Shown here one piece after another: positions 3,660 to 27,934 of a stretch of 39,614 bases of DNA. Under the pieces are notes generated by a model. The model was not told the DNA's origin, did not search any database, and saw only the letters and a program-made list of their open reading frames with translations. Origin of the DNA: Candidatus Alistipes equi (GTDB lineage Bacteria > Bacteroidota > Bacteroidia > Bacteroidales > Rikenellaceae); assembly GCA_018065435.1 (NCBI GenBank), contig JAGHTK010000156.1:1-39614 (forward strand), read 5' to 3'. Numbering within the stretch: position 1 is the stretch's first letter; each line of letters begins with the position of its first letter. A program made the position numbers and the translations under genes.

Positions 3660-6152
3660 ATGAAAACTTGCACGCTTAAAGATATTCTTCCCATCTGGGA
3701 AACTAAAAAGAACTATATCCTATCAAAAGATATGGATGTAACGTTTGGGTGTGAAATAGTTTTTCCTTCGATGTTCGCCCTTTCAAACGAAGAAATCAAA
3801 AAGATGCACGAGGCCTTTTCCAGAGCGCTGGAGATGCTTCCCTCGAATGCCGTTGTGCACCTTAGAAGCGAATACCGCTACGTAAATCCGAAAATTAAAA
3901 CATGGTACAGAGATGAAATTGAAAAGCAAAACGACATGCATTTCTGCAAGCGTCCTCTTTTTGAGAGCACCTCACACCTTTTCATAACATTCAGAAATCA
4001 TCCGGGAATTCCACCCACTATCCTTATGGGATGTCTTTCAAAAAAGGGGATTATCTCCAAGGAGCATCTCGAAAAGGTTCAAAACAAAGAGTATTTCGAC
4101 CATGTTGAAAAGTTCTTCAGATGTATCGAATCCTCGACTTCGATTGTACTTAAAGCTCCTATGGAATGTGATTTTGAAAATGGGGAAAGCCTTCAAAGCA
4201 TAATTCAAAGAAGTCTTTTTGTGGGAGCTTCTTTCGAAGCACCTTTGGAGGATATAACATTTGATGGGGAGTGTCTAAAGGTAGGAAGACGCCACATATC
4301 GATTCTCTCTCTTGGAGAGCTTTCCCTGCTTAGTCCAACAATCTCCCCTATAAAATACTTACAACAAACTAAAAACTCTAAGGATGATTTAGCCCTTTCA
4401 CTTCTTTGCGCGATTGGAGTTTTGTTTCCAAGGGAACACGTTGTAAATGTAGTAATCTCTTTGGGGGATACTCAAAAAGAACTTTCCAGAATAGAGCGTA
4501 GCTCCAATCATAAACACTCTTTGGAACTCTTTTCAAGTGAGAATAGAACATCGGCCCTGGAGCAAGAACAGTTTATTTCCAAGATAACAAAAGGCGGGGA
4601 AACAATCTGCCATCTACACCTTAACCTTATGCTCTGGGACGAAAACGAGGCTATGTTATCAAAAAAAGAAACGGAGGCCGTATCGGCATTTTCCACGCTT
4701 GGATGGAAGTGCCACATTGAGCGAAACCGCCTTCTCGCGCTTTTTTTAAGTTCTATTGCTGGAGCTGCGGGAAGGATCTCTCGTCTGGAAAGTATGACCC
4801 TTACACAAAATGAGGCAGCGATGTTTCTTTCCAGCGAAAGAATCGATAAAGTCTACCCTACCCAGAACGGAGTTCGCCTTGTGGAACGCATCTCGGGAAA
4901 TCCCATCGATGTGGACCTTACGGATACGCCCTTCTTGCAAGGCATCATATCGAATCGCAATAAGTTCATTTTGGGTCCATCTGGCTCTGGCAAGAGTTTT
5001 TTTATGAATCATCTTCTTCACTGCTACTATACACAAGGTTATCACATAGTGGTACTGGATATGGGAGGGAGCTATAAGAACCTCCAGAGAGTTATCCAGT
5101 GGCAAAGTATGGGTCGTGATGGGCTGGAAGTGGAATATGGTACAAACACTGGCTTTTCGATGAATCCGTTTCGCTCTGTGGATTCTGATGACAGCGAAAA
5201 ACTGGATTCCATAATGAATGTCATCCTCTCTTTATGGAAACACGATAGTGAAAGTGTTTCCAGACGTGAAGAGACCTTTTTAGCAGAGAGTATCGCCCTT
5301 TATACGGAGAGTGTCAAGGCGAATAAACGGACAGGATCGATGGATGGATACGTACGCTTCGTGGAGGGAGAATACCAAGAAAAACTTCGTGAGCGTAACA
5401 TCTCATCCAAAGAATTCCCTCTTATGGAATTTCTTTCATCACTTAAGCCCTATACACATCGAGGAAAGTTTTCCCGCTATATAGATTCTAATATGGAAGA
5501 GGACCTTCTTTCGAACCGCTTTATACTCTTTGATATAGATCGCGTCAAGGACAACCGCATCTTAAAGAACATACTGCTTCTTTCGCTTACGGAATGCTAT
5601 ATGGAAAAACTACGAAAACTTCCGGGTAAGCGTAAGGTCATTGTAATGGACGAAGTCTGGAAGGCAATCTCGAGTGAACGTATGGCAGACTATCTAAGAT
5701 ACCTCTTTAAGACTGTTAGAAAGCACGAAGGAGAGGCCATCGTACTTAGTCAGGAAATCGAAGATCTGGTCGAATCCCCTATTGTAAAACAGACTATTGT
5801 CTGCAACTCGGACTGCAGAATCCTCTTCGATATGAAACATAACCGTGTGGCACTGGAGCGTCTAAGAGCTCTTCTTGCGCTTGATGGAAAGGCCATGGGA
5901 GAAATTGAATCACTAAACAGTGCCATAGGTCGGGAACTCTCTGGAAAAGATGTCTGGATAGGTTTCTCTTCGGGTGAAAGTCATGTCTTTAGAGTTGAGG
6001 TAAGTCCAACGGAGCGTATTCTTTACTCTTCCGATGAGAAGACCAAAGAAGAGATGGAACGATATATGCTTCAGGGGTTGGATCCCATAAGTGCAGCCCA
6101 AAGAATTCTTCAAAACAAACAAAGTGCAACGACAAAAGAATCTTTTATATGA
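3660..6152 (+). CDS. traG: TraG-like conjugation ATPase (VirB4 family)
   Basis: 830 aa; FILGPSGSGKSFFMNHLL Walker A; KVIVMDEVWKAI Walker B; position in operon. Confidence 0.92.
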   Translation: MKTCTLKDILPIWETKKNYILSKDMDVTFGCEIVFPSMFALSNEEIKKMHEAFSRALEMLPSNAVVHLRSEYRYVNPKIKTWYRDEIEKQNDMHFCKRPLFESTSHLFITFRNHPGIPPTILMGCLSKKGIISKEHLEKVQNKEYFDHVEKFFRCIESSTSIVLKAPMECDFENGESLQSIIQRSLFVGASFEAPLEDITFDGECLKVGRRHISILSLGELSLLSPTISPIKYLQQTKNSKDDLALSLLCAIGVLFPREHVVNVVISLGDTQKELSRIERSSNHKHSLELFSSENRTSALEQEQFISKITKGGETICHLHLNLMLWDENEAMLSKKETEAVSAFSTLGWKCHIERNRLLALFLSSIAGAAGRISRLESMTLTQNEAAMFLSSERIDKVYPTQNGVRLVERISGNPIDVDLTDTPFLQGIISNRNKFILGPSGSGKSFFMNHLLHCYYTQGYHIVVLDMGGSYKNLQRVIQWQSMGRDGLEVEYGTNTGFSMNPFRSVDSDDSEKLDSIMNVILSLWKHDSESVSRREETFLAESIALYTESVKANKRTGSMDGYVRFVEGEYQEKLRERNISSKEFPLMEFLSSLKPYTHRGKFSRYIDSNMEEDLLSNRFILFDIDRVKDNRILKNILLLSLTECYMEKLRKLPGKRKVIVMDEVWKAISSERMADYLRYLFKTVRKHEGEAIVLSQEIEDLVESPIVKQTIVCNSDCRILFDMKHNRVALERLRALLALDGKAMGEIESLNSAIGRELSGKDVWIGFSSGESHVFRVEVSPTERILYSSDEKTKEEMERYMLQGLDPISAAQRILQNKQSATTKESFI

Positions 6153-6793
6153 AACAACTCCGTAGGAAATTTTTCGTAACGTTTATTTCACTTATGCTTT
6201 TTGTGGTTTATGATACGAAGTGTCAGATTGTTGTAAGCGATCCTTCGAATCTTGCCCAAAGTATAGTCAATGCGGCAAACGAGATGCAGTATACAGCCTC
6301 CTCGGCACAAACAGCTCTTGAAAATCTCGAGAAGACAAAACAGATATTCTCAAGTCAACGGGAGTTTTTCGAACAGTTCCGCGTGGTATCCGCAGCCGTA
6401 AAGGGCGCAAGAAAGCTTCAGGAAGTAATGTTACTTTCCGAGCGCGTTCTGGACACGTATCTGCTTTCTTATCGCACAATTGCAGCTTCAAAATACATTT
6501 CCCCGAAAGAACTTGGAGCCGTAGCTTCTTCCTACGCTACGATTCTTCGTCGAACGGCCGCGGTTCTTTTGGATGTCAGGGAGGCTATCCAGGAAGGAGG
6601 TCTTCGCCTTAATGACAGTGGTCGCATGGACCTTATTCTAAGATGCTACCAGGAAGCAGAAGAACTCATCTCGATAACGGATTACTTCTCAAGAGAACTT
6701 CTTTCGCTTATACGTCTACGAGATGAAGCACGAAGACTCAGAAATCGCTTTCGCGAGATTGGAGGAGATACTAAAAAACTAAATTTCAAGTAA
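6149..6793 (+). CDS. traI: TraI-like conjugative transposon protein (DUF4141-like)
   Basis: 214 aa; signal peptide and long helical region; overlaps the end of traG; precedes traJ. Confidence 0.7.
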   Translation: MKQLRRKFFVTFISLMLFVVYDTKCQIVVSDPSNLAQSIVNAANEMQYTASSAQTALENLEKTKQIFSSQREFFEQFRVVSAAVKGARKLQEVMLLSERVLDTYLLSYRTIAASKYISPKELGAVASSYATILRRTAAVLLDVREAIQEGGLRLNDSGRMDLILRCYQEAEELISITDYFSRELLSLIRLRDEARRLRNRFREIGGDTKKLNFK

Positions 6794-6795
6794 GG

Positions 6796-7764
6796 ATGGT
6801 AAGAATTCTTGTAACATTCTCCACACTTTCGGACCTTCTTTTTAATCTTCACACGAAGATGCTTTCGGTGGTAGAACCTATGTGCCACGTAGCACAAGGT
6901 ATGGCAGCCCTGGCAGTTCTTTTTAAGGTATCCTTTCACATCTATCGCTCAATGTCAATGGGAGAGCCCCTATTGGGAGCAGCACTTTCCATGGTTCGTT
7001 CCCTTCTTGTACTTCTTTGCATAGCGCTCTTTCCTTCGCTTGTGATAGGCGGTCTGAATGGTATTCTTTCACCCCTTAGTTCAGGTACGCAACTTATGCT
7101 TGAAAAGAATCGCGAGAAGATGGAAGATGTGCACGAACAATACGAGATGAAACTTAGAGAGAAAATCTCTAGCGATGATGGACAGGGATATGTTCTTGAT
7201 GACGAGGAGTTCAACCGCCGTATGCAGCGTATGGGAATTCTTGAAGCCCCGGAAATGCTTTCGATGGTTATGGAGCGAAGCGCATTTCATCTTCGTGAGC
7301 GGGCCCTGAGACTTCTTCGGGAAATTCTTCGCATTCTCTACGATTCTATGACACTTTGTCTTAATACCCTTCGCACATTTTTCCTTGTAATTCTTTCCAT
7401 CGTAGGTCCGATATCCTTTGCCATATCAATCTGGAAAGGCTTCGAAATAACACTTCCATACTGGATATCAAAATATGTAAGTGTCTATTTATGGCTTCCC
7501 CTTGGAAACATCCTTTCCGCTTTAATGGAAAGAATCGAATGTATGGTAATTGAGAATGATCTTGCAGCAATTACAAGTGGACAAGATATCTCCCAGGAGG
7601 CATCCGATGCCTTTTGGATTGCCTTTTCGCTTATGGGAATCGTTGGTTTTCGTATGGTTCCCCATCTTTCCTCGTGGATTATACAATGTTCTACGGCGGA
7701 ACGTTATAGTGGAGCTATAGCCGAAATCACTTCATCCGTACTCTCTGCCTTTTATCGAAAATAA
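6796..7764 (+). CDS. traJ: TraJ-like conjugative transposon inner-membrane protein
   Basis: 322 aa multi-TM protein in the traJ position. Confidence 0.8.
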   Translation: MVRILVTFSTLSDLLFNLHTKMLSVVEPMCHVAQGMAALAVLFKVSFHIYRSMSMGEPLLGAALSMVRSLLVLLCIALFPSLVIGGLNGILSPLSSGTQLMLEKNREKMEDVHEQYEMKLREKISSDDGQGYVLDDEEFNRRMQRMGILEAPEMLSMVMERSAFHLRERALRLLREILRILYDSMTLCLNTLRTFFLVILSIVGPISFAISIWKGFEITLPYWISKYVSVYLWLPLGNILSALMERIECMVIENDLAAITSGQDISQEASDAFWIAFSLMGIVGFRMVPHLSSWIIQCSTAERYSGAIAEITSSVLSAFYRK

Positions 7765-7775
7765 AACAAGACTCT

Positions 7776-8417
7776 ATGGAAATTTTCAAAAGATACCCCA
7801 TTGGGGAAGTGGAAACAGTGTCAAGGACGTTTCGTGTGATGCAACGAATAACGATTCTTAGTATCCTATGTGCCTTAATTACAATATCGGCCGTTGCAAT
7901 TTACGCTATGTGGCAAACGGAAGAGAAGTACGACAGAATATACGTACTGGACGAGGGGCACTCAATCTGGATGACTAGAAGGGAAAGCGCTCTGGAAGAT
8001 AGGCCCCTGGAGGCTAAGGCGCACCTGCGTCTTTTTCATGAGATGTTCTTTACGCTTTCTCCAAATAGTGAATCGTGGGATGAAGCTCTGAAAAGAAGCC
8101 TGGAGATGGGAGGCGAAAGCGTTCGAACGCTTTACGAAGATTTGAAGGAAAGTCGCTTTTATGAACGTTTGCACGATACGGGCGCCATACAACGAATCAT
8201 AGTTGATAGTATTCAACTTCTGGAAAGGAGCTATCCAATCCAGGCTACAACATTTTCTCGTCAGATAATCGAAAGAGAATCCGTAACGGAGAGCCGACTT
8301 CTTATAACGGAGTGTGTTCTTTCGCAGTGCCCTCGCACCTATAGTAATCCTCACGGATTTTTAGTCAATCGCTTTCGAATAACCAAAAACAGTGCATTAG
8401 AAAGAAAACACAAATGA
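7776..8417 (+). CDS. traK: TraK-like conjugative transposon protein (VirB8-like)
   Basis: 213 aa; single N-terminal TM; KYDRIYVLDEGHSIWMTRRE; position. Confidence 0.8.
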   Translation: MEIFKRYPIGEVETVSRTFRVMQRITILSILCALITISAVAIYAMWQTEEKYDRIYVLDEGHSIWMTRRESALEDRPLEAKAHLRLFHEMFFTLSPNSESWDEALKRSLEMGGESVRTLYEDLKESRFYERLHDTGAIQRIIVDSIQLLERSYPIQATTFSRQIIERESVTESRLLITECVLSQCPRTYSNPHGFLVNRFRITKNSALERKHK

Positions 8418-9484
8418 AACGAAAAACGGAATATATGCTTTACGCACTTAGTGTTGTCGTGGTTGCTATCCCATTTATGCTTTCTATTAAAAAGGAGCAA
8501 ACAGATGGATTTAACTGTGAATTTCCAAAGGCGTACGATGGAGAAAAATGCCAAAAGCCAAGCGGAGCGCTACTAATGGAAGTACCTCTTCTTACGGACT
8601 CGGTTTTTGAAAAAAGTGCCCTTCAAACAAAAAACAGCACTACCCTTCTGGATACAATTTCCAAAAAGAAAACATCCATCAACTGCTCGCTTCATAAAAG
8701 CCAGACAGCCCTTGAGGCCGTTGGAAAAGCAAGAAGTGTTGCAAGGGATTGTCACAAAGAAAAAAGGATTCCAAAAAAGACTATAAAAGACACTATTTCA
8801 AGTGGAAAGTATCAAAAAACTGACCAGATGGAACTTATTCGTGAAAGTTACCGCCTTGCAATGGAGCTTTCGGGCAAGACTCAAAAAAAAGAAACCCCGG
8901 GCATCACGCATAAAAAAAGTTACCGATTAGAAAAACTTAAGGAGAACGAAGGGGTTGTATCATCCCTTTGTGGAATGGAGAGTGAAGCTAAGTTTTTTGG
9001 ATGCAACAATGAAACGCAGGCACCCCAGGGTGAAGAACTCTTTCTTTTTAAGCTCTGGCAAAAGCAAACTATCGAAAACGGTTCTAGCATGCTTCTAAGC
9101 CTTAATGAAGATGTTCTCATTGAAGGCCACAGAATTTATTCAGGAACGATTTTTGAGGCCGTTGCAAAAGTGGATAAAGACCATCTTTTTATTGAGGTAA
9201 ACTTCCTGGAAATAGACTCTAAAAGAATTCCTCTTTGCTTAAAGGCCGTATCAGCGCAAGGAAGTGATGGATTTACTATTCAAGAAGGAGAGCTTCGAAC
9301 TATCGGAAATGCTATAAAACAAGGTACGCTGGAGGCTTCGAATCTAGGGCTTTCCCATGGAATACTACAACGTGGTATTCACGAAGGAGTGGAAGCTACA
9401 AGGGAAATTCTTGAGAAAAAAATTCAAAAAAAGCGCATCGTTCTGGAAAGTGGTATGACCCTTTTTATGCGAAATGCTCAATAG
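8414..9484 (+). CDS. traM: TraM-like conjugative transposon protein (VirB10-like)
   Basis: 356 aa; N-terminal TM, low-complexity linker, C-terminal IENGSSMLLSLNEDVLIEGHRIYSGTIFEAVAKV.. typical of TraM. Confidence 0.85.
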   Translation: MKRKTEYMLYALSVVVVAIPFMLSIKKEQTDGFNCEFPKAYDGEKCQKPSGALLMEVPLLTDSVFEKSALQTKNSTTLLDTISKKKTSINCSLHKSQTALEAVGKARSVARDCHKEKRIPKKTIKDTISSGKYQKTDQMELIRESYRLAMELSGKTQKKETPGITHKKSYRLEKLKENEGVVSSLCGMESEAKFFGCNNETQAPQGEELFLFKLWQKQTIENGSSMLLSLNEDVLIEGHRIYSGTIFEAVAKVDKDHLFIEVNFLEIDSKRIPLCLKAVSAQGSDGFTIQEGELRTIGNAIKQGTLEASNLGLSHGILQRGIHEGVEATREILEKKIQKKRIVLESGMTLFMRNAQ

Positions 9485-10295
9485 AGAAAAACAATACGCA
9501 TTACAAAATCAAATGAAACGAAGACTTTTTATTTCACTTCTATGGCTTACAGCACTTTGCAGTAAAGTGGATGCTAATGCTTTTTTCAAAGAAAGGGATG
9601 AGAGCGTTCCAGAATTGGAAGTTGCTTTTGATAAGACCCTGCACCTTATTTTTTGCGAGAGAATCGTATACGTTGATCTAGGCTCTCAGGAGATAATTGC
9701 AGGAAAGGCTCCAGGGGTTGAGAATATCCTTCGAGTAAAAAGCCAGCGGGAGAACCCCTCGCTTGATACAACTCTTTCGGTTGTTACCCAGTCAGGAACT
9801 TTCTACTGCTTTCGTTGCATCTATAATGCTAATCCAAAAAGTCTAAGTATTCACCTTAACAGTATGGAAAAAGTGGCTGAAGTAACGGATGATTTTTCTT
9901 GGGAAGAGTTACTTCTTATTAAAAAACGCATAAAAGAGTACGAGCAGGAGCAGCGAGCAACTATAGGAAAAATCTTCAAGAGCAAAAAAATCGAAGTTGC
10001 GTTTTTGATTCGTTCCAAACAACGTCTGATTGTTGCCTTAAAAATGGATGAAAAGCAGGAAACGAAAGTAGCAATCAGAGACCTTTCACGCTCAAAATCA
10101 AAAATTCAGATGAGTGAGTACTCCTATAAACAAATCCTTTCCAGAAAAGATATTGGGGATTTAACGGTGGTGCTTCTAAGGGACCAAGGCCCTAAGCGCA
10201 GCGCTTCACTTGAAATTTCCATAAAACAAAACGAACAAACCTTCCTTTTGGAGCTTAGCCCAAGGGAAAGAAAAATGCTTGGAGAATGGGAATAA
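9474..10295 (+). CDS. traN: TraN-like conjugative transposon protein (DUF4138, VirB9-like)
   Basis: 273 aa; KTLHLIFCERIVYVDLGSQEIIAGKAPGVENILRVKSQ is TraN-like. Confidence 0.85.
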   Translation: MLNREKQYALQNQMKRRLFISLLWLTALCSKVDANAFFKERDESVPELEVAFDKTLHLIFCERIVYVDLGSQEIIAGKAPGVENILRVKSQRENPSLDTTLSVVTQSGTFYCFRCIYNANPKSLSIHLNSMEKVAEVTDDFSWEELLLIKKRIKEYEQEQRATIGKIFKSKKIEVAFLIRSKQRLIVALKMDEKQETKVAIRDLSRSKSKIQMSEYSYKQILSRKDIGDLTVVLLRDQGPKRSASLEISIKQNEQTFLLELSPRERKMLGEWE

Positions 10296-10873
10296 AAAGA
10301 CAAATAGCGTTGCTTGTAGTGATTCTTTTCCATCTATCACTTTTCGGTGAAGAAATTCTAAGCGGAGAAGTTTCTCTGGATACCTCTTTAGCTCTTCGAC
10401 CAAAACGCGCAGGCGTTGGTTGGGATTTTTCCCTTGGAGTATCGAAAAGTTATATGCATCAGATGCGACTATACATAGGTGTAAAGTACTCTTGTGCAAA
10501 TCTTAAATACGCGAAAGGGAACATTCCTGTAAGGGAAATAGGTGGATGCGCTCTATGGTTTATTCCACTAACAAGAAATCTTTCAGGAAAATTCTTCCTG
10601 GAAGCCGCCGCTGGCATTCATATTGGATACTCTAAAGTAAACAATGGAAATAAAGAGCTTTGGGATGGCTCAAGAGTAAAAAAAAGTAAAGGCCTCGTTG
10701 TAAGTTTCGAGATTCTTTCAAGCGTGCGTGTAAAGCTTAAAAAGAGACTGAGTCCATACCTAAGCCTTGGAGTAACATACGCTCCTGTATATGTAACCAA
10801 CAGGTGTTCGCCTACAATAAAACTAGGCACACTTATTCTTATAAACAAACCGTCTAAAATCAAAAAATTATGA
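10286..10873 (+). CDS. traO: TraO-like outer-membrane protein
   Basis: 195 aa; signal peptide and beta-barrel-like repeats; directly after traN. Confidence 0.65.
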   Translation: MGIKRQIALLVVILFHLSLFGEEILSGEVSLDTSLALRPKRAGVGWDFSLGVSKSYMHQMRLYIGVKYSCANLKYAKGNIPVREIGGCALWFIPLTRNLSGKFFLEAAAGIHIGYSKVNNGNKELWDGSRVKKSKGLVVSFEILSSVRVKLKKRLSPYLSLGVTYAPVYVTNRCSPTIKLGTLILINKPSKIKKL

Positions 10874-11862
10874 AAAAAGTAACATTATTCCTTTTTGTCG
10901 CTATTCTTTTTGCGGCATGTACAAAAGAGGTTCAAAATCTTTCTTCAAAGCAAGAGAACCTTCATGAAATTCGTTTTGAAATCCCTCGAAGTCGAGCAAC
11001 TGTAGAGGCTACGGATTTTGAAAAACAGATTAAAACGCTTGAGATTCTGATTTTTAACAAGGACCATCAAAAGGTCATATCAAGAACCGTTCTGGAGGAC
11101 GAAATCGCTTCAGGGAGCTTCTCTGTAGGAGTATCCAAAAAGATGGCGGGCGAAAAGTGCACGGTATATGCCATAGCGAACTCCCCACAGGATGAATCCC
11201 AAAGCGAAGAGGAAATCCAAAGTCGCATAGAGGAGGACTTTGACATGTATCAAAGTAACTACGATATGGTAAAAAACCGGGCAATACGTCCCAGGGGATT
11301 TTCTATGTCAGATAAAAAAGAGGTGACACTTTCCCTGGAAGGGGGTGTAACTTCCGTCACATTATCTTTAAGAAGAGTCGTTGCTCGCATTCACTCTTCG
11401 ATTTCCATATCGGAAAAATTCTCAAAAAAGTATCCCGGGAAGATCACTCCAAAAAGTGTGAAAATTTTAGGGTGTGCTACAAAAAGCTACATCGTTCAAG
11501 GCGATTCCGTAGTCGCAGCACCTCTTACAGCCTCCTATACGCAGCCTTCAAAATTGGAAGATCTGGTATGGCACAACCTTTATTATTCGTATGAGAGAAA
11601 CGATCAGACAAGCGCCACCTTGCCTCGCCTTATTGTTAATTGTGAATACGATAATGATGGAAATGCGGATACGAAGAATGACATATCGCAAATGGAGTAT
11701 GTGATTGATCTTAATGCAAGTGGCATAGGAGTAATAAAAAGAAATACCTCATACGCCGTTGAAGCCCAGATTACAGGTCTTCAGGGACAGGAACTTTCCT
11801 TTACGGTAAGTGTTCTGGATTGGGATGAGGCCACACATGAAGAAATTGAAATTGGTGCATAA
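10870..11862 (+). CDS. Fimbrial subunit-like lipoprotein (Mfa/FimB-type)
   Basis: 330 aa; lipobox LLFAACTKE; FEKQIKTLEILIFNKDHQKVISRTVLEDEIASGSFSVGVSKKMAGEKCTVYAIANSP matches the fimbrillin N-domain pattern. Confidence 0.7.
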   Translation: MKKVTLFLFVAILFAACTKEVQNLSSKQENLHEIRFEIPRSRATVEATDFEKQIKTLEILIFNKDHQKVISRTVLEDEIASGSFSVGVSKKMAGEKCTVYAIANSPQDESQSEEEIQSRIEEDFDMYQSNYDMVKNRAIRPRGFSMSDKKEVTLSLEGGVTSVTLSLRRVVARIHSSISISEKFSKKYPGKITPKSVKILGCATKSYIVQGDSVVAAPLTASYTQPSKLEDLVWHNLYYSYERNDQTSATLPRLIVNCEYDNDGNADTKNDISQMEYVIDLNASGIGVIKRNTSYAVEAQITGLQGQELSFTVSVLDWDEATHEEIEIGA

Positions 11863-14162
11863 TGAAACACTTGAAAAATTTTATACAGACAAAAGTGCCT
11901 TTGGTACTTCTTACACTTTTTCTTGGTTTTACCTTTTCTTGCAGGGAGGAAGACGAAAGTCTTCCTTCCTTGAAAGGAACTTCGTTTTTGAAAATAAACT
12001 TTCAGGTAGATTCTCTTGAAGCGAAGTGTCGAGGCGAGGAAGAAACCATAGAAAATCTTACAGTGTACCTTTCGGGTAAGGATTTTCTTTTTTTCAGATG
12101 CATAAAAGCCGACGAAGGCAAAATAAGACTAGAGTGTCCAAAAGGCAAGTACGATTGCTATTGCATTGCAAACTCTTCCCACGAAGCACTTTCCAGCATC
12201 GAGGAAGTCAAGAGGATGATTCTAAAAAAGGAGGATCTAGGTGCTCTTTGGGCTTATACTGAAGTAGAGTGTAGTCCCGAGGCTCAAAATATCGTAACCC
12301 TTAGAAGATGTCGAACAAAGTTTAGAGTCGATGTAAAGGTAGACAAAGAAAAGCAGGATGAAATCGAGCTTCTGTCGTTTCGCTTTATGAACCTAAAAAA
12401 AACGATGCAGCCCTTTATGGAAGGCTCGTCCATGGATTTTTATAATGAAGAGGAACACAAGGCAGAAAACAGGGATTATCTCTATGCTGAATGTGAGATG
12501 TTTGAAAATCTGGCGGGAGAAAATCCCAATATTGAAAGTGAGATGCAACGAAGTGAAAAAAACGCACCTGCTGGGGCTTCCTATCTTCTAATTCGAGCCA
12601 GAAATCAAAACGAGATTCTTTACTATAAGATCTTTCTTGGGGAGAATACCACAACGTCGTTTAATCTAAAAAGAAATACGGTATACTCTCTGGAGGTTCA
12701 AATTAAAGGGGACTCGAAATTCGAAGAACGTCTTTCGCGCTACGAGATTTTCTGGAATGTAAGGGATAAAGAAAAGGTAGAAGGATACTTTTTCCCCTCT
12801 ACAGGTGCCACACTTGAAATTACTTCTCTTTCAAGTGGAAATACCACGCTAAGTGTTTCGTTTGAAGTAATTCGGGGCGAGAGGGAGCATCTAAAAATTA
12901 ACGGCGAGTACCTTTTCTCGCGCCCATTTGAAATTACTCCGAACTCTACGGAAGAGTTTCAGATAAGTTACACGCCAGAAGTAGTACGGGATGAGAATTC
13001 TTCTCTGGAACTTCGTCTTCGATTCTTAGATCAGAGTGGATACTCTTTTGAAAACACTCTTACGCTAAATTTTGTAAACGCCATACGAATAATGTCTACT
13101 AACTTATCGCATATAGATATCGAGGCCTTGGGTGTAAAGTTTCTTTTAAGGGAAAGCACATCCTCATTTTTAGCCGGTGCCACCTCACCAAGTATCACCT
13201 TAAAGGCAAATAAGACGGCTTCGTATCGCTTTCGAGGATGGATTAAAGATGGTGTACCCCAAAAAACTGAGACGTTTCTTCTTCCAATTACCACAACTTA
13301 TCAGGAGCAGTTGCTTCTTGTAGAGTATGCAGCAAACAAGATATTCTATAAAACAACCTCCTCAAAGTTGCTTCCAATCGAGGGGCCTTTAAGTGCGGAT
13401 GCCGAAGTTGTATCGAATACCTATAGCGAAGGGGAAGGAACGATTCTTTTTGATATGGATGTCGAAACGCTTTTGGACGGAGCCTTTGAAGGACAATCAA
13501 CCCTTCTTGAAATAACGCTTCCCGAAACGCTTCTTTCATTGGAAAAATCTCTGTTTGAAGGGTGTTCCAATTTAGAGGAAGTAACGCTTCCTCTAAACAT
13601 CATAAAAATTCCAACATCGTGCTTTCAGCGCTGCAGAAATTTATCAGAGATCCATCTTCCCGATAAGATTGAAATAATCGAAGAAGGAGCTTTTTCAGGA
13701 TGTGAAAATTTGCAAAGTGTTCTTTGGCCCGCGTCTCTTCGACGCATCGAAAAAAGTGCTTTTTATCTGTGTCGGGCACTGGAAACGGTTTCATTTTCTA
13801 ATCAGACTGAGAGCATTGACAATTGGGCATTTTACGGATGCTCTGCCTTAAAGCGGGTGAAATTCGAAGATGGGCTTTTACGTATTGGTCACTTTGCTTT
13901 TGAAAACTGCAGGGAATTACAAACGGTAGAATTTCCATATCAGTTACAAGAAATTGGAGAAGGAGCCTTTCATAAGTGCGAGAGTCTTTCCCAGGTGGAA
14001 TTTCTTTCTTTCACTTCTCCCCAGCAAGGCTATTATCAAAATGGCTGGGATGCCTTTTATGACTGTTTCGCTCTTGAAAGAATTCTTGTTCCCAAAGGAG
14101 CGCTTTCAAGCTACCAGAAGATGTGGCCCATGCATAAAGAGATAATTAAAGAACGTCCATGA
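11862..14162 (+). CDS. Fimbrillin-like lipoprotein with C-terminal BspA-type leucine-rich repeats
   Basis: 766 aa; lipobox FTFSCREE; N-terminal IENLTVYLSGKD..YDCYCIANSSHEAL; C-terminal tandem ~23-aa LRR_5-like repeats (LEEVTLPLNIIKIPTSCFQRCRNLSEIHLPDKIEIIEEGAFSGC...). Confidence 0.8.
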   Translation: MKHLKNFIQTKVPLVLLTLFLGFTFSCREEDESLPSLKGTSFLKINFQVDSLEAKCRGEEETIENLTVYLSGKDFLFFRCIKADEGKIRLECPKGKYDCYCIANSSHEALSSIEEVKRMILKKEDLGALWAYTEVECSPEAQNIVTLRRCRTKFRVDVKVDKEKQDEIELLSFRFMNLKKTMQPFMEGSSMDFYNEEEHKAENRDYLYAECEMFENLAGENPNIESEMQRSEKNAPAGASYLLIRARNQNEILYYKIFLGENTTTSFNLKRNTVYSLEVQIKGDSKFEERLSRYEIFWNVRDKEKVEGYFFPSTGATLEITSLSSGNTTLSVSFEVIRGEREHLKINGEYLFSRPFEITPNSTEEFQISYTPEVVRDENSSLELRLRFLDQSGYSFENTLTLNFVNAIRIMSTNLSHIDIEALGVKFLLRESTSSFLAGATSPSITLKANKTASYRFRGWIKDGVPQKTETFLLPITTTYQEQLLLVEYAANKIFYKTTSSKLLPIEGPLSADAEVVSNTYSEGEGTILFDMDVETLLDGAFEGQSTLLEITLPETLLSLEKSLFEGCSNLEEVTLPLNIIKIPTSCFQRCRNLSEIHLPDKIEIIEEGAFSGCENLQSVLWPASLRRIEKSAFYLCRALETVSFSNQTESIDNWAFYGCSALKRVKFEDGLLRIGHFAFENCRELQTVEFPYQLQEIGEGAFHKCESLSQVEFLSFTSPQQGYYQNGWDAFYDCFALERILVPKGALSSYQKMWPMHKEIIKERP

Positions 14163-14704
14163 AAAAACTTTTGTGGGGAATAATACTTGTGATAAGTCTT
14201 TTTTGGGGGCAAAAGGCCAATGCACAGATTTTTGAAGTTGGAACGATGCTTTCAAGTGATGTGCTTTTAGAGTGGAACGCCCATCTGTCCATGCGTCTTT
14301 CAAGACACTCATCCCTTCTTCTAAATGCAGAATTTAATCCATTACAAACTTCTTCGTGGAGCATAAAAAACTGTGGGCTTGGCCTCTCGTACAGATGGTG
14401 GCGAACGGAGTGCTTTTATGGGCACTTTATAAGTGTGGATACGTTACACTTAAACTTCCGCGTAGGAAAACAGCCCTTTTTATGGAATGGAAATGGTACG
14501 GCCTTAGGCCTTGGATATGGCTACTCGTGGATTATAAGAAAAAGGCTAAATCTAACGCTTGAAGCAAGCCTTGGACTATGGTACATAAAAGCTAAGCGTT
14601 ACGTATTAGAAGAGGATGAATTTCTTCCTGACAGACTCTACCATCTTCGTCGATTTATGTTTTTACCCCTGAATGCCGGACTTAGTATTGGTTATATGTT
14701 CTAA
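14159..14704 (+). CDS. DUF3575-like outer-membrane beta-barrel protein
   Basis: 181 aa; signal peptide; LGLSYRWWRTECFYGHFISVDTLHLNF..GLGYGYSWIIRKRLNLTLEASLGLWYIKAKRY. Confidence 0.7.
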   Translation: MKKLLWGIILVISLFWGQKANAQIFEVGTMLSSDVLLEWNAHLSMRLSRHSSLLLNAEFNPLQTSSWSIKNCGLGLSYRWWRTECFYGHFISVDTLHLNFRVGKQPFLWNGNGTALGLGYGYSWIIRKRLNLTLEASLGLWYIKAKRYVLEEDEFLPDRLYHLRRFMFLPLNAGLSIGYMF

Positions 14705-14706
14705 AG

Positions 14707-16368
14707 ATGAAAAACAAGCAAGTAAAAAAGATAATTCTAGCCCTTTGGGTTCTACTCTTTTTAGGTTGTTCCATTCAAAGAAGCATTGAACGGGCGCCAC
14801 ATGGTATAAGGCTTCTTTCTTCAAAAAAGATCGAGCAGGCTAAGCCTCAAAGAAAAGCCATCGAAGATGAACGTTTTCTAGTAAAAAAGGGTCATAAGAC
14901 GCTCTACCTTATTCCAAAGGCTGAAGGGGAGGAGGATGAAGGGATTCGAATTGAGGCTGTTGAGGTTTTAGGAAAGTTTCGAAGTGTGGCGGAGCGAGCG
15001 GGTCATGTGGAGATTGCCTACAAAGTAGTAATTCCAAAGGAGGTGCTTCGAAAGAGTCGCAAGCTGGAGCTTTGGCCTGAAGTACACTTTGATGGTAAGA
15101 GTCTTAGTTGCGGTTTAATTGAAATTCGGGGAACGCTTTTCGATATGCTTCAAAAAAGGCAGTACTGGCAGTGGGAGACCTGGAAAAAGAGATTTCATCC
15201 AACGAACAACAGAATTAATCCCGAACGCTTTATAGCACTTAAAAAGAATCCAGCGGCACGCATTGATTCCCTTACGGAAGGTCTAAGAAGCATTTCCCTG
15301 TATCTTACGGAAAGAATCCGACTGGAAAGTTCTACAAAGAAGATTCTTTCCACCATTAGGTGTAAAGCACAGAATACAAATCTTTCAAGTTATTCGTTTT
15401 GGGTGCCAGATACACTTCACTTTTCCATAAGTTCGATGCTTTCCTTTGTAGATAACTCAACCAGATATATTAAGCGTATACGACTTAAGAAAAAACTGCG
15501 TGAAGATGTAAGGCGCATTGTTTTTCCCGTTGGCAGTTACACGATTGTTGATACTCTGGAAAATAACCAGGAAGAGCTCTCAAAGATTCTTTATTTAACC
15601 GATACGCTTCTTCGTGGAATTAATTATGCATTGGATTCCTGCACGGTAAAGGCGTATTCTTCGCCCGAAGGAAGTATCGAAAGTAATATGCGGCTTTCTC
15701 AGATGCGAGCCCAAAGTGTTGTTAAGCGCCTTCGGGAAAGGTTTGGAGAGGATGCCGATACAATTTTTCGGGCTCGTTCGGCAGGAGAAAACTGGGAAGA
15801 ATTCATTTCTCATCTTCATAAAATGCCATGCGCGTTCTCAAGGGAAATTATAAAAGAAGACAGCTTAAATGAAAACCGGGACCTTATTTTAAGGCGTGCT
15901 GCGATAAGATACCCTAAGCAATATGCAAAAATTCAGCAAAAGATTTTTCCAAGGCTAAGGGAAGTACGTTTTCAATTCTTTTTGCACGACAGACTTCTTC
16001 TTAGGGATACGGTTATAACTACCGAAGTTGACTCGCTTTATATGCGTGGGGTGGAACTTCTAAAAAAACGGGAATACAAACAGGCTTTGGAAATTCTAAA
16101 AGACTACCCTGGTATAAACGCTGCCATTGCGCACATGTCTCTTTCTCACGACAAAACTGCCTTAGAGATTCTAAAGAAGGAACCTCTGTCGGCTCAAAGG
16201 GAGTACTTAAGAAGCATTCTTTTTGTAAGAGAGCACATGTGGGAGCAAGCCAAGGAGGCCTTCTTCATATCGTGCAGGCTGGATGAAAATATGGAATTTC
16301 GTTCAGATATGGATCCTGAAATGTCTGAACTTAAAAAACGAATAAAAAATGAAAAGAGTGATTTATAA
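14707..16368 (+). CDS. DUF3868/OmpA-like lipoprotein of fimbrial clusters
   Basis: 553 aa; lipobox LLFLGCSIQ; VKAYSSPEGSIESNMRLSQMRAQSVVKRLRERFG is an OmpA-type peptidoglycan-binding motif; follows the DUF3575-like gene. Confidence 0.65.
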   Translation: MKNKQVKKIILALWVLLFLGCSIQRSIERAPHGIRLLSSKKIEQAKPQRKAIEDERFLVKKGHKTLYLIPKAEGEEDEGIRIEAVEVLGKFRSVAERAGHVEIAYKVVIPKEVLRKSRKLELWPEVHFDGKSLSCGLIEIRGTLFDMLQKRQYWQWETWKKRFHPTNNRINPERFIALKKNPAARIDSLTEGLRSISLYLTERIRLESSTKKILSTIRCKAQNTNLSSYSFWVPDTLHFSISSMLSFVDNSTRYIKRIRLKKKLREDVRRIVFPVGSYTIVDTLENNQEELSKILYLTDTLLRGINYALDSCTVKAYSSPEGSIESNMRLSQMRAQSVVKRLRERFGEDADTIFRARSAGENWEEFISHLHKMPCAFSREIIKEDSLNENRDLILRRAAIRYPKQYAKIQQKIFPRLREVRFQFFLHDRLLLRDTVITTEVDSLYMRGVELLKKREYKQALEILKDYPGINAAIAHMSLSHDKTALEILKKEPLSAQREYLRSILFVREHMWEQAKEAFFISCRLDENMEFRSDMDPEMSELKKRIKNEKSDL

Positions 16369-16531
16369 CGCAAGGCTTAAAAAAGGGCTGTTGTTTTTCA
16401 TGGTGGGGCTTCTTTTTGTGTCATGCACACTTTGGGAAAAGGAAACGATGGAAGAAAGGCGACCACCTCAAATTAAAGGAGAGATTAAGTGGGATGAATG
16501 GGAAGAAAATGTGGATGAGAGGTACCATTAA
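16349..16531 (+). CDS. Small putative lipoprotein (60 aa)
   Basis: LLFFMVGLLFVSCTLWEKE signal and lipobox; overlaps both neighbours. Confidence 0.45.
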   Translation: MKRVIYNARLKKGLLFFMVGLLFVSCTLWEKETMEERRPPQIKGEIKWDEWEENVDERYH

Positions 16532-16913
16532 AGTGTGTTTAGCACTTCTTACAATTTTTTTAATGCAAGGCTGCAAGTGGGACATTGAAAGGGATTACAA
16601 TTCGCCTTTCGAGATTCAAAGCGTAATTGAAAAGAATTCCATGCAATGGAAGCTTTTCGTTTCAATTAAAGAAACATTTCACTGGAAAGAGCAGCAATAC
16701 TTTTTAAGTGTAAGCGAAGTAGAGAGTGGAACATCCATTATATCAAGTGGAATGGTAAAAATAAAAGAAGGTCAGCAATACCTTATGGATGGCGAACAGG
16801 AAACGTTTTTTCTTTCGAGCGAGAAAGAAAATATCCGCTTTACGCTTTGTGTAAGAAATCTTTTTGGAAGAAGCATGAAAAAGGAAATTTCAACTACGGG
16901 TGAAGGCCTTTAG
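16509..16913 (+). CDS. traQ: TraQ-like conjugal transfer lipoprotein (DUF3872-like)
   Basis: MWMRGTIKVCLALLTIFLMQGCKWDIERDYNSPFEIQ...; start chosen at 16509 inside the longer ORF. Confidence 0.7.
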   Translation: MWMRGTIKVCLALLTIFLMQGCKWDIERDYNSPFEIQSVIEKNSMQWKLFVSIKETFHWKEQQYFLSVSEVESGTSIISSGMVKIKEGQQYLMDGEQETFFLSSEKENIRFTLCVRNLFGRSMKKEISTTGEGL

Positions 16914-16943: not shown

Positions 16944-17873
16944 ATGACAGAAGATGAAATACGCAGGGCTAACGACCATTCAATTGTGGAATACCTTAAA
17001 AAAAGGGGAATAGAGCCAGTAAAGCGGGGAGCGTTAGGAGCTATGTATCTTTCCCCTATTCGGGCCGAAAGGAACGCATCGTTTCATGTCTCTTATGAAA
17101 AAAACACCTGGTACGACTTTGGTATAGGACGTGGAGGAGATCTGATTTCACTTGTAAGAGGGATGGAAGGGTGTGATTTTTCAGAAGCCGTTAGAAGAAT
17201 TTTAGGTGGGGAATACCAAAGCATCCCAAAAAAGCAAGAGGAGGCCTATGAAAGCCCATCAACTCTCTCCCTTACGCGCGTTATAAAAAGTGAGAAGGTA
17301 AGTTCTATGCACCTTTTTGACTATGCCCAAAAGCGTGGCATTAGTGAAAAGAATATAGAGCAGTGGCTTAGGGAAGTAGTGGTTGAAGTAGGCAAAAAAC
17401 ACTTTCGGGCACTTGGTTTTCGAAATTCGAGTGGAGGTTGGGAAATTAGGAACGAGGATATAAAAATCTCCGTTTCGCCAAAGGATATAACGCATATATC
17501 CGCAGGGCACGCAACCGTTACCCTATTCGAAGGCTTTTTCGATTTTCTTTCGTATCTGGAGTTGGAGCGTGGACAAAATCCTAAGACTGATTTTATAGTT
17601 CTTAATGGTGTTTCGTTTCTAAGGCGCAGTTTCGATGTGCTTCCGAAATACGAGAAGATTCGTCTTTGTCTAGATAACGACAAGGCAGGAAAGGAGGCCA
17701 CAAAGGTAATTCAGGAGCACTTTTCAGATAGGACTGAAGATCTTTCAAACACGTACCGTGCATCGAAGGATTTGAATGAAAGTCTACAGAAATACCTTCA
17801 GCAAAAGCGCGAACTGGAGCTTCAGCGTCAAAGTCAAACGGGCTCGTTTCATGTAAAAAGAATAAAGCTATGA
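16944..17873 (+). CDS. traP: TraP-like DNA primase (CHC2-like N-terminus plus Toprim)
   Basis: 309 aa; SPIRAERNASFHVSYEKNTWYDFGIGRGGDLISLV; Toprim VTLFEGFFDFLSYL and IRLCLDNDKAGKEAT. Zn-binding Cys residues appear absent. Confidence 0.85.
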   Translation: MTEDEIRRANDHSIVEYLKKRGIEPVKRGALGAMYLSPIRAERNASFHVSYEKNTWYDFGIGRGGDLISLVRGMEGCDFSEAVRRILGGEYQSIPKKQEEAYESPSTLSLTRVIKSEKVSSMHLFDYAQKRGISEKNIEQWLREVVVEVGKKHFRALGFRNSSGGWEIRNEDIKISVSPKDITHISAGHATVTLFEGFFDFLSYLELERGQNPKTDFIVLNGVSFLRRSFDVLPKYEKIRLCLDNDKAGKEATKVIQEHFSDRTEDLSNTYRASKDLNESLQKYLQQKRELELQRQSQTGSFHVKRIKL

Positions 17874-19945
17874 GAGGCGAAGATGATATGGTAGCAATGG
17901 GAAAGCGCCGGCGGCTGATGCTCTCGATTGCAGTAGTTTTTCTTATGAGTCATCTGTGGTTTTTCTCACCCCACCTTCGTGAGGCCCTTGGAATTTTTTC
18001 ACCTTCGACCGATAGAATAACCCAGAAGATTTTCTTAAAAGAGACCCTTTTTGGAGGACAGATTCCTTCAAAACTTCTAATAGCTGCGATTCTTATTGTT
18101 ATATCCCTTTTTGAGGGAGCCAAGAAGAGTTGGGAAAAAGAAGGCCCATGGTGGATTATGTGTCCCATATCGCTTTTAATCTTTATTCTCTTTAACGGTG
18201 AGATTTCATTTATACGAAGTGCTACCATAAGGGAGGGAATCTATGTAGGAGTTATGGTTATGTCGTTTCTAGGAATTCTTTTTGGGCTGGAAAGGGTGAA
18301 AGCAAAGCTTGAAGATTATCTGGAAAAAAGAGGAAGTAACTCACCCGAAGAGAGTTTTTTACAGGAAGAGCGACTTTTATGCAATGAATACTCAATAAAC
18401 TACAGAACTCAGTACAGATTTAACGGGCGTATTCACAATGGATGGATAAATCTTGTGAATATTTTTCGCGCAACGATGGTTCTTGGAACCCCCGGATCGG
18501 GAAAAAGTTTCGCCATAATCGAGCAGTATATCCGCCAATGTATCGAAAAGGGATTCGCAGCCTACATCTACGACTTTAAGTACAGTGATTTAACAGAAGT
18601 TGCCTACAGACACTTTCTGAAAAATCAGAAGCGATACCCATCGAAAGCACGCTTTTTGGTTGTGAGTTTTGATGATTTACGCCATTCGAGTCGATGCAAT
18701 CCACTCGATGCCCGCTTTTTGGACGACATTTCAGATGCCTACGAATCGGCCTACACGATAATGCTTAATCTGAACCGCTCGTGGATAAAAAAGCAGGGAG
18801 AGTTCTTCGTAGAGTCCCCGATTGTTCTTCTTACGGCCGTTATATGGTTTTTAAGAATATACGAAAAGGGGAAGTACTGCACATTTCCACACGCAATAGA
18901 GCTTCTGAATAGTCCCTACAAGGATCTTTTTGAAATTCTTACATCGTATCCCGAGCTTGAAAGTTACATGTCTGCCTTTATCGATGCCTGGAAGGGAGGA
19001 GCGCAGGAGCAGTTGCAAGGACAGATTGCCTCGGCAAAGATTCCTCTATCGAGAATTATCTCACCTACGCTATACTGGGTAATGTCCGCATCGGACTTTA
19101 CTCTGGACTTGAATTCACCAACGGAACCGAAGATTCTTTGTATGGGAAACAATCCCGACAGACAGAATATAAACTCCGCAGCCCTTGGGCTTATCAATTC
19201 CCGCATTGTACGCATTATGAACAAAAAGAAGCGTCTGAAAAGTTGTATTGTAATCGATGAGCTTCCAACAATCTACTTTCGAGGTCTTGATAATCTTATA
19301 GCAACGGCAAGAAGCAATCTTGTGGCTGTGTGTTTGGGAATTCAGGACTTCTCACAACTAAAACGAGACTATGGCGAAAGGGAAGCAACGGTTATATGCA
19401 ATACCATTGGAAATGTCTTTTCAGGTCAGGTTGTGGGAGCATCCGCCAGGGATCTTTCCGAGCGTTTTGGACGCACCATGCAGCAAAGGCGAAGTGTAAG
19501 TTACTCCGATTCTGGTACATCATCACAGTTTTCCGAGCAGTTGGAGCAAATGATTCCTCCATCGAAAATTGCAGCCCTGTCGCCTGGAGAATTCGTGGGA
19601 GAGGTAGCCGATAGTTTCAATCAGCCTATCGAACGGAAAGTATTTCATGCAAAGATTCTTGTTAATCAAAAAGAGAAAGAAGACCCTATAGAGCTTCCTG
19701 TAACGTATGATTTTCTTTCGACAACGGGCGAGGATAACATGCAGCGCACAATTTTAGATAACTTCTTTCAAATCAAAGAGGATGTAAAGCGCATTATAGC
19801 GGATGAACTTCTTCGCATTCGAGAAACGGACGATTTATCAACTCTTCGTCTTATTTCATCGAAATCAAAAAACTGGGGATATGATAAAAGCACAGGGAAT
19901 AACTCTTCCACGCCTGGTAACGTTCCCGTTGATTATGGCAATTAA
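17870..19945 (+). CDS. Type IV coupling protein (VirD4/TraG family; MobC-like)
   Basis: 691 aa; N-terminal TMs; MVLGTPGSGKSFAIIEQY Walker A; KSCIVIDELPTIYFRGLDNLIATARSNLVAVCLGIQDFSQL. Confidence 0.9.
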   Translation: MRGEDDMVAMGKRRRLMLSIAVVFLMSHLWFFSPHLREALGIFSPSTDRITQKIFLKETLFGGQIPSKLLIAAILIVISLFEGAKKSWEKEGPWWIMCPISLLIFILFNGEISFIRSATIREGIYVGVMVMSFLGILFGLERVKAKLEDYLEKRGSNSPEESFLQEERLLCNEYSINYRTQYRFNGRIHNGWINLVNIFRATMVLGTPGSGKSFAIIEQYIRQCIEKGFAAYIYDFKYSDLTEVAYRHFLKNQKRYPSKARFLVVSFDDLRHSSRCNPLDARFLDDISDAYESAYTIMLNLNRSWIKKQGEFFVESPIVLLTAVIWFLRIYEKGKYCTFPHAIELLNSPYKDLFEILTSYPELESYMSAFIDAWKGGAQEQLQGQIASAKIPLSRIISPTLYWVMSASDFTLDLNSPTEPKILCMGNNPDRQNINSAALGLINSRIVRIMNKKKRLKSCIVIDELPTIYFRGLDNLIATARSNLVAVCLGIQDFSQLKRDYGEREATVICNTIGNVFSGQVVGASARDLSERFGRTMQQRRSVSYSDSGTSSQFSEQLEQMIPPSKIAALSPGEFVGEVADSFNQPIERKVFHAKILVNQKEKEDPIELPVTYDFLSTTGEDNMQRTILDNFFQIKEDVKRIIADELLRIRETDDLSTLRLISSKSKNWGYDKSTGNNSSTPGNVPVDYGN

Positions 19946-23592: not shown

Positions 23593-26361
23593 TTGAATAG
23601 GCGTATGAAGAAGTTTTACTTTTTTTTAACATTAGCTACAACTTTAGTAGCAATGCTTGTTTCTTGTCAGAAGGGAACAAATGATATAAATACCATTGAA
23701 AATCAAGGTGTATTTACAGTTACTGCTGATTATGTTGAGCCTGTTGCAGATGTAACGAAGACGGCTTTTGTCGATGACGAGAACCCTTACGTTAAATGGT
23801 TATCAACGGACAAGATTATTGTTTATGAATCTATTGATGGCGAGTATAAATATCACCATAATCAAAAAGGTGATATTATCCTTTCCGATAATGATAAGCA
23901 AGCAAAGTTCAATATCAGTTTGTATACTCCTACAGGAGTTGTTCCTACAGGAAATACATTTTGCTATACTGCTATATATCCTGCAACTGGTGTAAATGAA
24001 GGAACTGGCTTTTATTATTTCGAAATTCCTGCAAGTCAGACGCTTTCGGAAGATGGCAATTTTGCGAGCAATGCAGATATTCTCATCGGTAAACCAATCA
24101 ATATGAATAGCCGCATTTCCACAACAACCAACCTTGAAGTTCAATTCAAGCGACCGGGAACAGTTGTGGCTTTAACCTTAAAAGGGATAACGGCAGGTGA
24201 AACCATATCTTCCGTAAAGGTTACGGCTCCTGAGGGCAAAAAAATTGCAGGACGCTGTAAAATTGATTTAATAACAGGAGTGGTTCCTGAAGATGAAAAA
24301 GCTTACTACGGAGGCACTAATGAAATCACTCTCAACTGCAATATTACAGCAACGGGAAACGATAAATTTTATTTTCGTTGCCTTGATGGCACTTGGACAA
24401 GCGGTAGCGAAGTTTCAATTAATGTTGAGACTGATAAGGCTTATTATTCCAAAACCGTCAATCTTCCCAATGATTATATTTTTGCCGACGGAGGTTTGAC
24501 CAAGTTCGGATTCCAATTCAGCGAAACACATAGGGAAGCGAAGAGTAACGGAACACCTTACACACTCGTTACTTCTAATAGCGACATCTGCGATGGTGCA
24601 TCTTATATTTTTGTTGGAATCAAGGATGATATGTATTATGCCATGTCAGAACAGAATAGCAACAATAGAAAATCCACAGTGGTTTCTGTTCCTGTTGACA
24701 ATGTTATATCCTTGCCTACTAGTACTGAGGCTTATACATTCCAACTTGAAGAAAAAACAGAAGGTTGGGCCATTAAAGATAATACCGCTAGTAGCGTTAA
24801 TAAGGGGGAATATTTATATCCTGCAACAGGAGGAAACTACCTTCGTTCTCAAGAAAATGTCTTGGCATGGACAATTGACATAGATGAGCAAAATTGTGCG
24901 ACAATAAGCGCAAATGAAAAATTGATGAGGTGTAATACAAATCAAACACCTTTGTTCGCCTGCTATTCTTCTGGGCAATCACCTATATATCTCTATGTAG
25001 ACAAATCTACTTGTAAAGAAAAACTTGCTACACCTGTTCTTGGAACTCCTACCGTAAATCATTTCACAAAGTCCATTACCATTACTTGGACCGATGTTGC
25101 AAATGCAACAGTATATGAGGTTTCTTGTGGGGAACAAAAGCAAAATATAAATCCTGGTGTTCAGACCCACACATTCAACGAACTTTCCGCAGGAGATTAT
25201 ACTATTACTGTAAAGGCCGTGGATGGAACAGATACATATACATCTGCAACAGCGACAACTGGTAAAATCACTCTTGGTGATCCTACAATTACCCTTAGCA
25301 CGACTGAAGTTGTCAATGTCGCAGCTGAAGGCGGAGACTTTGAAGATATTACATATGAATTGAATTATGCCGAGGATAAAGACCTTTCTTGGACCTGCGA
25401 CGGAACGGTCGTAACAAAGGTTGTCGTTGTCGCTGACGGCGGAAAAATTGTTTACAGTGTTTCCGAAAACGCCGCTAATGAAGGCCGAAATGGCGAGATT
25501 AAGGTTACGCTCAACGGCGAAACTAAGACCATTACCATTTCACAACTCGGTAAAGGCGCCGCACCTGATCCTGTTCTTACAAAACTCAAGGACATCTCTG
25601 ACGTTCCTGCTGCGGGAGTAACAGGTGTAACAGAAAGCGAAGTTTACTCTCTTGAAAATGCAGAAGTAGGAGATTTGACCATTACTCCTGATGGCGAAAT
25701 AGTAACTGCGGCTTCTTCAACAACTTTAGGTTCCATTACCTATACAGTTGCCGCTAACACTGGCGAAGCACGCACAGGTTCGATTACCATCAGCATTGGC
25801 AGTACGGAATCTATTGAGATTAGCGTATCACAGTTAACCGGAGTCAGCCACGATTATAAATTGGTTGAATCTTCATTAACAGACTGGCGTGGTGATTACC
25901 TAATAGCATACTCAGATGATGTCTTCATGGACGGCTCACTTGCAGGTGGCACTAATGGCGTTGGAAAAACGCAGTCACATGTTGCTCCCGCCAATAATTT
26001 GTCTAGTGATAAGAAGACAGTTTCAGAAAGTTGGGGTGATACTCACTATGTAACGATAGAGGCAATTAATGACACGGATTTATCAAAAGGCTATGTTATA
26101 AAGAGTCACAGTCAAACGACCCCCTACTTCTATCAAACAAGCAATAAGAATGGTATGACTAGTACTGCAACGAAAGCTACAGCGGCAAAATATCCGATCA
26201 CCATTGAATTTACTTCAAGTTCTGACATTAAAATCAAACTCGGTGGAGAAGCAGCTGGCGCTGTTCTTCGTTACAATAAAACCAATGGCACTACTGGCGA
26301 AATGTTCCGCTTCTATAAAAATTGTGGACAATATGCAATATATCTTTATAAAAAGCAATAA
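23593..26361 (+). CDS. Large fimbrillin/BACON-like lipoprotein adhesin, module 1
   Basis: 922 aa (likely start ATG near 23605); lipobox MLVSCQKG; fimbrillin-like N-domain; Fn3-like, BACON-like and 'YLY..NYLR..CYSSGQSPIYLY' modules. Confidence 0.75.
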   Translation: MNRRMKKFYFFLTLATTLVAMLVSCQKGTNDINTIENQGVFTVTADYVEPVADVTKTAFVDDENPYVKWLSTDKIIVYESIDGEYKYHHNQKGDIILSDNDKQAKFNISLYTPTGVVPTGNTFCYTAIYPATGVNEGTGFYYFEIPASQTLSEDGNFASNADILIGKPINMNSRISTTTNLEVQFKRPGTVVALTLKGITAGETISSVKVTAPEGKKIAGRCKIDLITGVVPEDEKAYYGGTNEITLNCNITATGNDKFYFRCLDGTWTSGSEVSINVETDKAYYSKTVNLPNDYIFADGGLTKFGFQFSETHREAKSNGTPYTLVTSNSDICDGASYIFVGIKDDMYYAMSEQNSNNRKSTVVSVPVDNVISLPTSTEAYTFQLEEKTEGWAIKDNTASSVNKGEYLYPATGGNYLRSQENVLAWTIDIDEQNCATISANEKLMRCNTNQTPLFACYSSGQSPIYLYVDKSTCKEKLATPVLGTPTVNHFTKSITITWTDVANATVYEVSCGEQKQNINPGVQTHTFNELSAGDYTITVKAVDGTDTYTSATATTGKITLGDPTITLSTTEVVNVAAEGGDFEDITYELNYAEDKDLSWTCDGTVVTKVVVVADGGKIVYSVSENAANEGRNGEIKVTLNGETKTITISQLGKGAAPDPVLTKLKDISDVPAAGVTGVTESEVYSLENAEVGDLTITPDGEIVTAASSTTLGSITYTVAANTGEARTGSITISIGSTESIEISVSQLTGVSHDYKLVESSLTDWRGDYLIAYSDDVFMDGSLAGGTNGVGKTQSHVAPANNLSSDKKTVSESWGDTHYVTIEAINDTDLSKGYVIKSHSQTTPYFYQTSNKNGMTSTATKATAAKYPITIEFTSSSDIKIKLGGEAAGAVLRYNKTNGTTGEMFRFYKNCGQYAIYLYKKQ

Positions 26362-27920: not shown

Positions 27921-27934
27921 TGGAGGGTACGCAT

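Follow-up and report, generated by a model that had tools for sequence, protein, structure and literature searches.

Why should genes of a fimbrial type lie in the middle of a conjugation operon? The question is raised by a contig of Candidatus Alistipes equi, which we analysed at its full length of 39,614 nucleotides (the window, which is the entire contig C8 of a 2.08 Mb genome that is 84.7% complete). An earlier sequence-only reading had placed four fimbria-type genes at 10870-16368, between traO and traQ, and had suggested that the element may produce a surface fibre together with its T4SS, for example for adhesion of mating pairs. As a whole, this interpretation is partly supported by the analysis described here.

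Fimbrial genes within the tra operon

The tra block is co-oriented on the forward strand and opens with traG (3660-6152), which encodes a VirB4-like ATPase (Pfam TraG P-loop, 7.8e-121). It is followed by the Bacteroidales-type T4SS genes traI, traJ, traK, traM and traN (6149-10295), which overlap or nearly abut, and by traO (10286-10873; Pfam TraO, 9.3e-9). Pfam identified TraM (8.9e-17) and DUF4138/TraN (7.1e-25), and in the traI-traK stretch DUF4141 (9.8e-11) as well as TraJ (0.0087) and VirB8 (6e-4), both below the cut-off. Although traJ and traK are below the Pfam cut-off, they are correctly placed and common to relatives, and the traG-I-J-K-M-N-O order is that of CTnDOT-type operons. The likeness extends to three genes further downstream on the same strand: a traQ-like lipoprotein gene (16515-16913; Pfam TraQ_transposon, 0.0017, sub-threshold), for which 16515 and not 16416 is the likely start, a conjugal primase-like gene with CHC2 and Toprim domain matches (16944-17873) and the gene for a MobC-type T4SS coupling protein (17870-19945; NCBIfam Bacteroid_MobC, 829.5 bits, just under the 900-bit cut-off). 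Unlike in CTnDOT-type operons, traO and traQ are separated here by an inserted type V pilus set together with the gene for a small lipoprotein. In B. thetaiotaomicron, traN-traO is followed by DUF3872 (PMC10434189).

The set comprises four forward-strand genes, A (10870-11862), B (11862-14162), C (14159-14704) and D (14707-16368). The co-oriented and tightly packed arrangement described in the sequence-only reading is borne out by the coordinates: traO and A overlap by 4 nt, A and B by 1 nt and B and C by 4 nt, and a 2-nt gap separates C from D. The flanking genes are also as it described, but D is not directly 5' of traQ: a forward ORF of 60 residues with a lipobox-like FVSC motif (16349-16531), apparently a small lipoprotein, overlaps both D and the traQ-like gene. 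From traG to mobC, most adjacent genes overlap or are spaced by no more than ~30 nt, and all are co-oriented. GC and GC3 continue from the tra genes into the fimbrial genes without a break, and the frames of A-D are all open. Co-expression of the set with the tra genes is suggested by the gene overlaps and by the lack of any convincing terminator. Counts of promoter-like and terminator-like matches, including those in the traO/A and D/traQ intervals, were near the shuffle expectation; the promoter scan is uninformative because Bacteroides promoters differ.

Misbinning of the contig is unlikely, since its GC of 0.40 matches that of ten other contigs of the same genome (0.38-0.42). Past the mobilisation genes, the window encodes two large predicted lipoproteins that contain BACON/Big_3 Ig-like domains (23593-26361 and 27920-31402) and add to the surface proteins of the contig. 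A second DUF3575 protein (1.4e-18) is encoded on the reverse strand near the contig end (37307-37954), adjoining an endonuclease/exonuclease/phosphatase-family gene. AAA_14/DUF4143 ATPase genes are located near both contig ends (871-2226 and 35495-36808), the right-hand copy as two ORFs.

The four fimbrial proteins

The four proteins were characterised by their domain matches and, for A and D, by structure prediction. None of them is assigned to a Tra family by Pfam or NCBIfam. A matches Mfa2 (2.9e-8) and FimA (2.2e-6) in Pfam, both over the curated cut-off, and by profile the Mfa3 tip subunit of P. gingivalis (8.4e-7). Its AlphaFold model is of moderate confidence (pLDDT 74), and the best PDB matches of this model in Foldseek are FimA prepilins, Mfa3, Mfa4, Mfa2 and Bacteroides fimbrillin-class adhesion proteins, with E-values down to 3.9e-14. 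A is a member of the FimA/Mfa pilin superfamily by both sequence and predicted fold. Its sequence contains an LFAAC lipobox with Cys17. Assembly of type V pilins involves cleavage close to the N-terminus, which in Bacteroides is carried out by a surface clostripain (PMC12632263), and Arg42 of A, located after the first strand, is therefore a possible cleavage site; this position is Arg or Lys in 12 of 12 aligned homologs of A (alignment A3). A is probably the polymerising shaft subunit.

B combines a DUF4906 pilin domain (Pfam, 3.6e-21) with C-terminal BspA-type leucine-rich repeats (LRR_5, 1.3e-50), for which LRR proteins in the PDB (4fs7 and 4gt6) were also matched. The tip pilin of a type V pilus is defined by a C-terminal ligand-binding domain (PMC12632263), and B has this layout. 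NCBIfam gave a weak match to a FimD tip adhesin, far under the cut-off. B is a probable tip adhesin, judging from its domain arrangement. Its lipoprotein motif, FTFSC, is weaker than that of A, and the two proteins agree with the prediction of two fimbrillin-like lipoproteins. Around the B gene, a search for shufflon-like inverted repeats returned imperfect arms only, none of them convincing. A and B are the only pilin-like proteins encoded at 10870-16368, and a separate third (anchor) pilin was not seen there. Besides FimA, A matches the Mfa2 anchor family, and the task of a dedicated anchor pilin may instead fall to D or C.

C is a predicted outer-membrane barrel that matches Pfam DUF3575 (1.7e-26), in line with what had been expected of it. 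D was expected to be a DUF3868/OmpA-like lipoprotein, and this description holds at the level of profile homology but not of a Pfam family match. In D, an N-terminal beta region is combined with a peptidoglycan-binding domain of the OmpA type, and the C-terminus is TPR-like; the lipoprotein Cys21 is invariant across alignments A1 and A4. Pfam gives a weak OmpA match, and the AF2 model resembles OmpA C-terminal domains in Foldseek. Pfam DUF3868 (PF12984) was not matched by D, nor was it among the families matched by 17 D relatives. In hhalign, however, D aligned over most of its length with the DUF3868 set of ordinary fimbrial loci (99.95% probability, E 1.1e-37). The D tree separates a D clade from the ordinary DUF3868 loci sampled; the D of the window forms a long branch, so its own placement is unsure. 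Sequence comparison sets D apart as a lipoprotein subfamily of its own within the DUF3868 proteins. Five loci (L054, L055, L056, L058 and L059) encode long D proteins (~830 residues), which form a clade and occur together with DUF3575 and a separate DUF3868-like ORF; tra genes were not found near these loci.

The set has much in common with the type V pili of Porphyromonas (FimA/Mfa1) and Bacteroides (Mfa-like): two-domain lipoprotein pilins, a tip with a C-terminal adhesin domain, and an accompanying DUF3575 protein and DUF3868-type OmpA/TPR protein. It differs from them in that only one shaft candidate is present and a separate anchor pilin is not recognisable, in the distinct lipoprotein subfamily to which its DUF3868-type protein belongs, and in its location inside a conjugation operon.

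Recurrence beside conjugation genes

D homologs at strong E-values were found in ~27 of 150 Rikenellaceae genomes. For the collection scan, the D alignment A1 proved too diverse and was replaced by a closer set, A2, which samples typical relatives of the window but leaves out the window itself. The fimbrial set recurs in at least five slots among tra/mob genes, in Rikenellaceae and Dysgonomonas elements and in Bacteroides plasmids. It follows traO, as in the window, at six other loci (L035, L036, L038, L080, L176 and L201), and mobC-DUF3945 at seven (L032, L037, L041, L057, L079, L085 and L086). In Dysgonomonas and other Bacteroidota it lies between traG and traI (L101, L103, L105, L106 and L154); HMM searches give the order traG-DUF3575-D-DUF5119-Mfa_like-Mfa_like-traI in the last four of these, and Pfam confirms DUF5119 and two Mfa_like pilins in L101. 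At four loci (L097, L100, L118 and L122) it is placed after the traN end of the operon, and in Bacteroides plasmids it either follows the coupling protein or immediately precedes traG. A plasmid search with A as the query returned nothing. The tip domains vary between elements and include LRR, Big_2 and InlB-type repeats. Both the fimbrial identity that the sequence-only reading gave to the genes and their embedding in a tra operon, which recurs in many other elements, are thus supported.

At tra-fim junctions of up to 2.5 kb, the fimbrial genes are co-oriented with the tra genes in 33 of 33 cases, six of which (L110, L111, L113, L114, L120 and L140) were recognised by a TraO-family match alone and are weaker evidence, as is the tra-linked label they carry in the D tree for the same reason. 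Across the 150 Rikenellaceae genomes, TraN or MobC is encoded no more than 12 kb away from 10 of 37 D loci but from only 1 of 86 ordinary DUF3868 loci (Fisher p 2e-5). The difference persists when only genomes with TraN or MobC are considered (10/26 versus 1/27, p 0.002), and TraN is present in 19 of 27 strong-D genomes versus 15 of the 123 others (p 3e-9); these p-values are indicative, as the loci are phylogenetically non-independent. The association of the fimbrial set with conjugation genes is recurrent and strand-coupled.

Counting by eye the ~40 TraN loci with enough downstream sequence, we found a pilin gene within ~1.2 kb after traO or traN in 10. In a further 6, the genome carries a set after mobC or DUF3945, with linkage on one contig in four. 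The element or genome therefore holds such a set for ~16 of 40 scorable TraN loci, and ~30 of 40 tra loci are without a pilin directly after traO. Distances among D proteins correlate with those of TraM (Mantel r 0.76) and TraN (0.63), which was reached in 0 of 2000 permutations; across TraM, TraN, TraK and TraG, r ranges from 0.48 to 0.76. This co-divergence fits long residence in the same elements but also shared host ancestry, with which it is confounded.

An exclusive association of D with conjugation was rejected. The collection scan found D loci with no tra gene detected nearby in 34 genomes, most of them of a rumen Bacteroidales clade, and 31 of these genomes are without TraG and 32 without TraM. 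In addition, the D tree calls for tra linkage to have been gained or lost ~11-16 times. The fibre is therefore not obligatorily tied to conjugation. In rumen Bacteroidales, five of the loci (L111, L113, L114, L120 and L140; ~5-10 kb) have a TraO-family gene 5' of DUF3575 and D, which in L114 is separated from them by a D12 adenine methyltransferase gene. TraG is undetected in the genomes of L111, L113 and L120, and is located elsewhere in that of L140; the L114 genome has a truncated TraG copy on one contig. Such TraO-DUF3575-D loci are possibly element relics or a partnership of TraO with the fimbria.

A role in mating-pair adhesion

We propose that 10870-16368 encodes a type V pilus linked to conjugation, whose tip adhesin would favour contact between donor and recipient, a proposal that we consider to have about an even chance of being correct and that is the likeliest of the readings. 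The gene order, predicted pilin fold, adhesin domain, recurrence and strand coupling were observed, and co-transcription, pilus assembly, a ligand and the role in mating are inferred. The pilus would be a small one of the FimA/Mfa class and part of the conjugation module, with a shaft of A subunits formed through protease-assisted strand exchange. B would cap the fibre and present its leucine-rich-repeat adhesin. The barrel C and the peptidoglycan-binding outer-membrane lipoprotein D would anchor or assemble the fibre. Because the fimbrial genes sit within the tra transcription unit that we propose, the cell would produce the fibre at the same time as the transfer machine. It could then keep donor and recipient, or neighbours in mucus or a biofilm, together until the T4SS engages. 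The repeated association with conjugation genes is consistent with such a role.

The main rival is that the set is cargo for colonisation or biofilm formation, a type V fimbria useful to the host cell and sited in the operon only to borrow its promoter. We regard this as a real but lesser possibility. The finding of D-family fimbriae in genomes without a T4SS and the differing tip domains among elements are both in its favor. So is the nearest precedent, the conjugative megaplasmid pMMCAT of gut Bacteroidales, which also carries fimbrillin genes linked to adhesion; a strain with the plasmid showed stronger adhesion to plastic than did a relative lacking it (PMC12056005). A preprint cited in that paper is reported to link them to biofilm as well. 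The fimbrillin genes of pMMCAT are described as possible variable cargo in a lower-GC region and not as genes within the T4SS operon (PMC12056005). Cargo would not be expected to occupy several distinct sites inside or abutting tra/mob genes, including the traG/traI slot, and always on the tra strand, and ordinary fimbrial loci are nearly devoid of such linkage.

It is improbable that the fibre is an integral surface part of the T4SS that replaces a conjugative pilus and is physically joined to TraN/TraO at the outer membrane. The position of the set directly after traO would suit this arrangement, as would the TraO-family genes 5' of DUF3575-D in rumen genomes (L110, L111, L113 and L120), several of which have no detectable TraG. 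However, the set is absent from most related tra operons, which means that a T4SS can work without it, and its slot varies among elements. Chance insertion of a neutral fimbrial cluster is very improbable: Bacteroidales have many such clusters (86 ordinary DUF3868 loci in the 150 genomes), but the four open frames, kept overlaps and GC3 coherence with the tra genes, the recurrence in several slots and different families and the linkage tests all argue against it.

An adhesive surface structure encoded by the element and acting beside the T4SS in mating-pair formation, as we propose for the mating pilus, has parallels in the PilV-tipped type IVb pili of R64/IncI and PAPI-1 and in PrgB of pCF10 (PMC5297154, PMC10588982). 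In the case of PAPI-1, binding to recipient LPS was examined for PilV2 of its type IVb conjugative pilus (PMC5297154). The proteins involved are unrelated to A-D, and the analogy is functional only. Our search of the open literature, which covers few subscription journals and no preprints, turned up no earlier description of a type V pilus set embedded in a tra operon of Bacteroidales, and the novelty is provisional.

Bacteroidales elements spread resistance genes in the gut. To our knowledge, how Bacteroidales donors find and hold their recipients is poorly understood. A type V pilus set that recurs in tra operons is a concrete and deletable candidate for the grip on the recipient, and its varied tips (LRR, Ig-like and InlB-type repeats) make recipient specificity testable. 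The finding joins two surface systems that are usually studied separately. More tentatively, a dedicated type V mating pilus, co-expressed with the transfer genes, may be widespread among conjugation systems of Bacteroidota. Its exchangeable tip adhesins would set the choice of recipient, a mode of mating-pair formation undescribed for the phylum.
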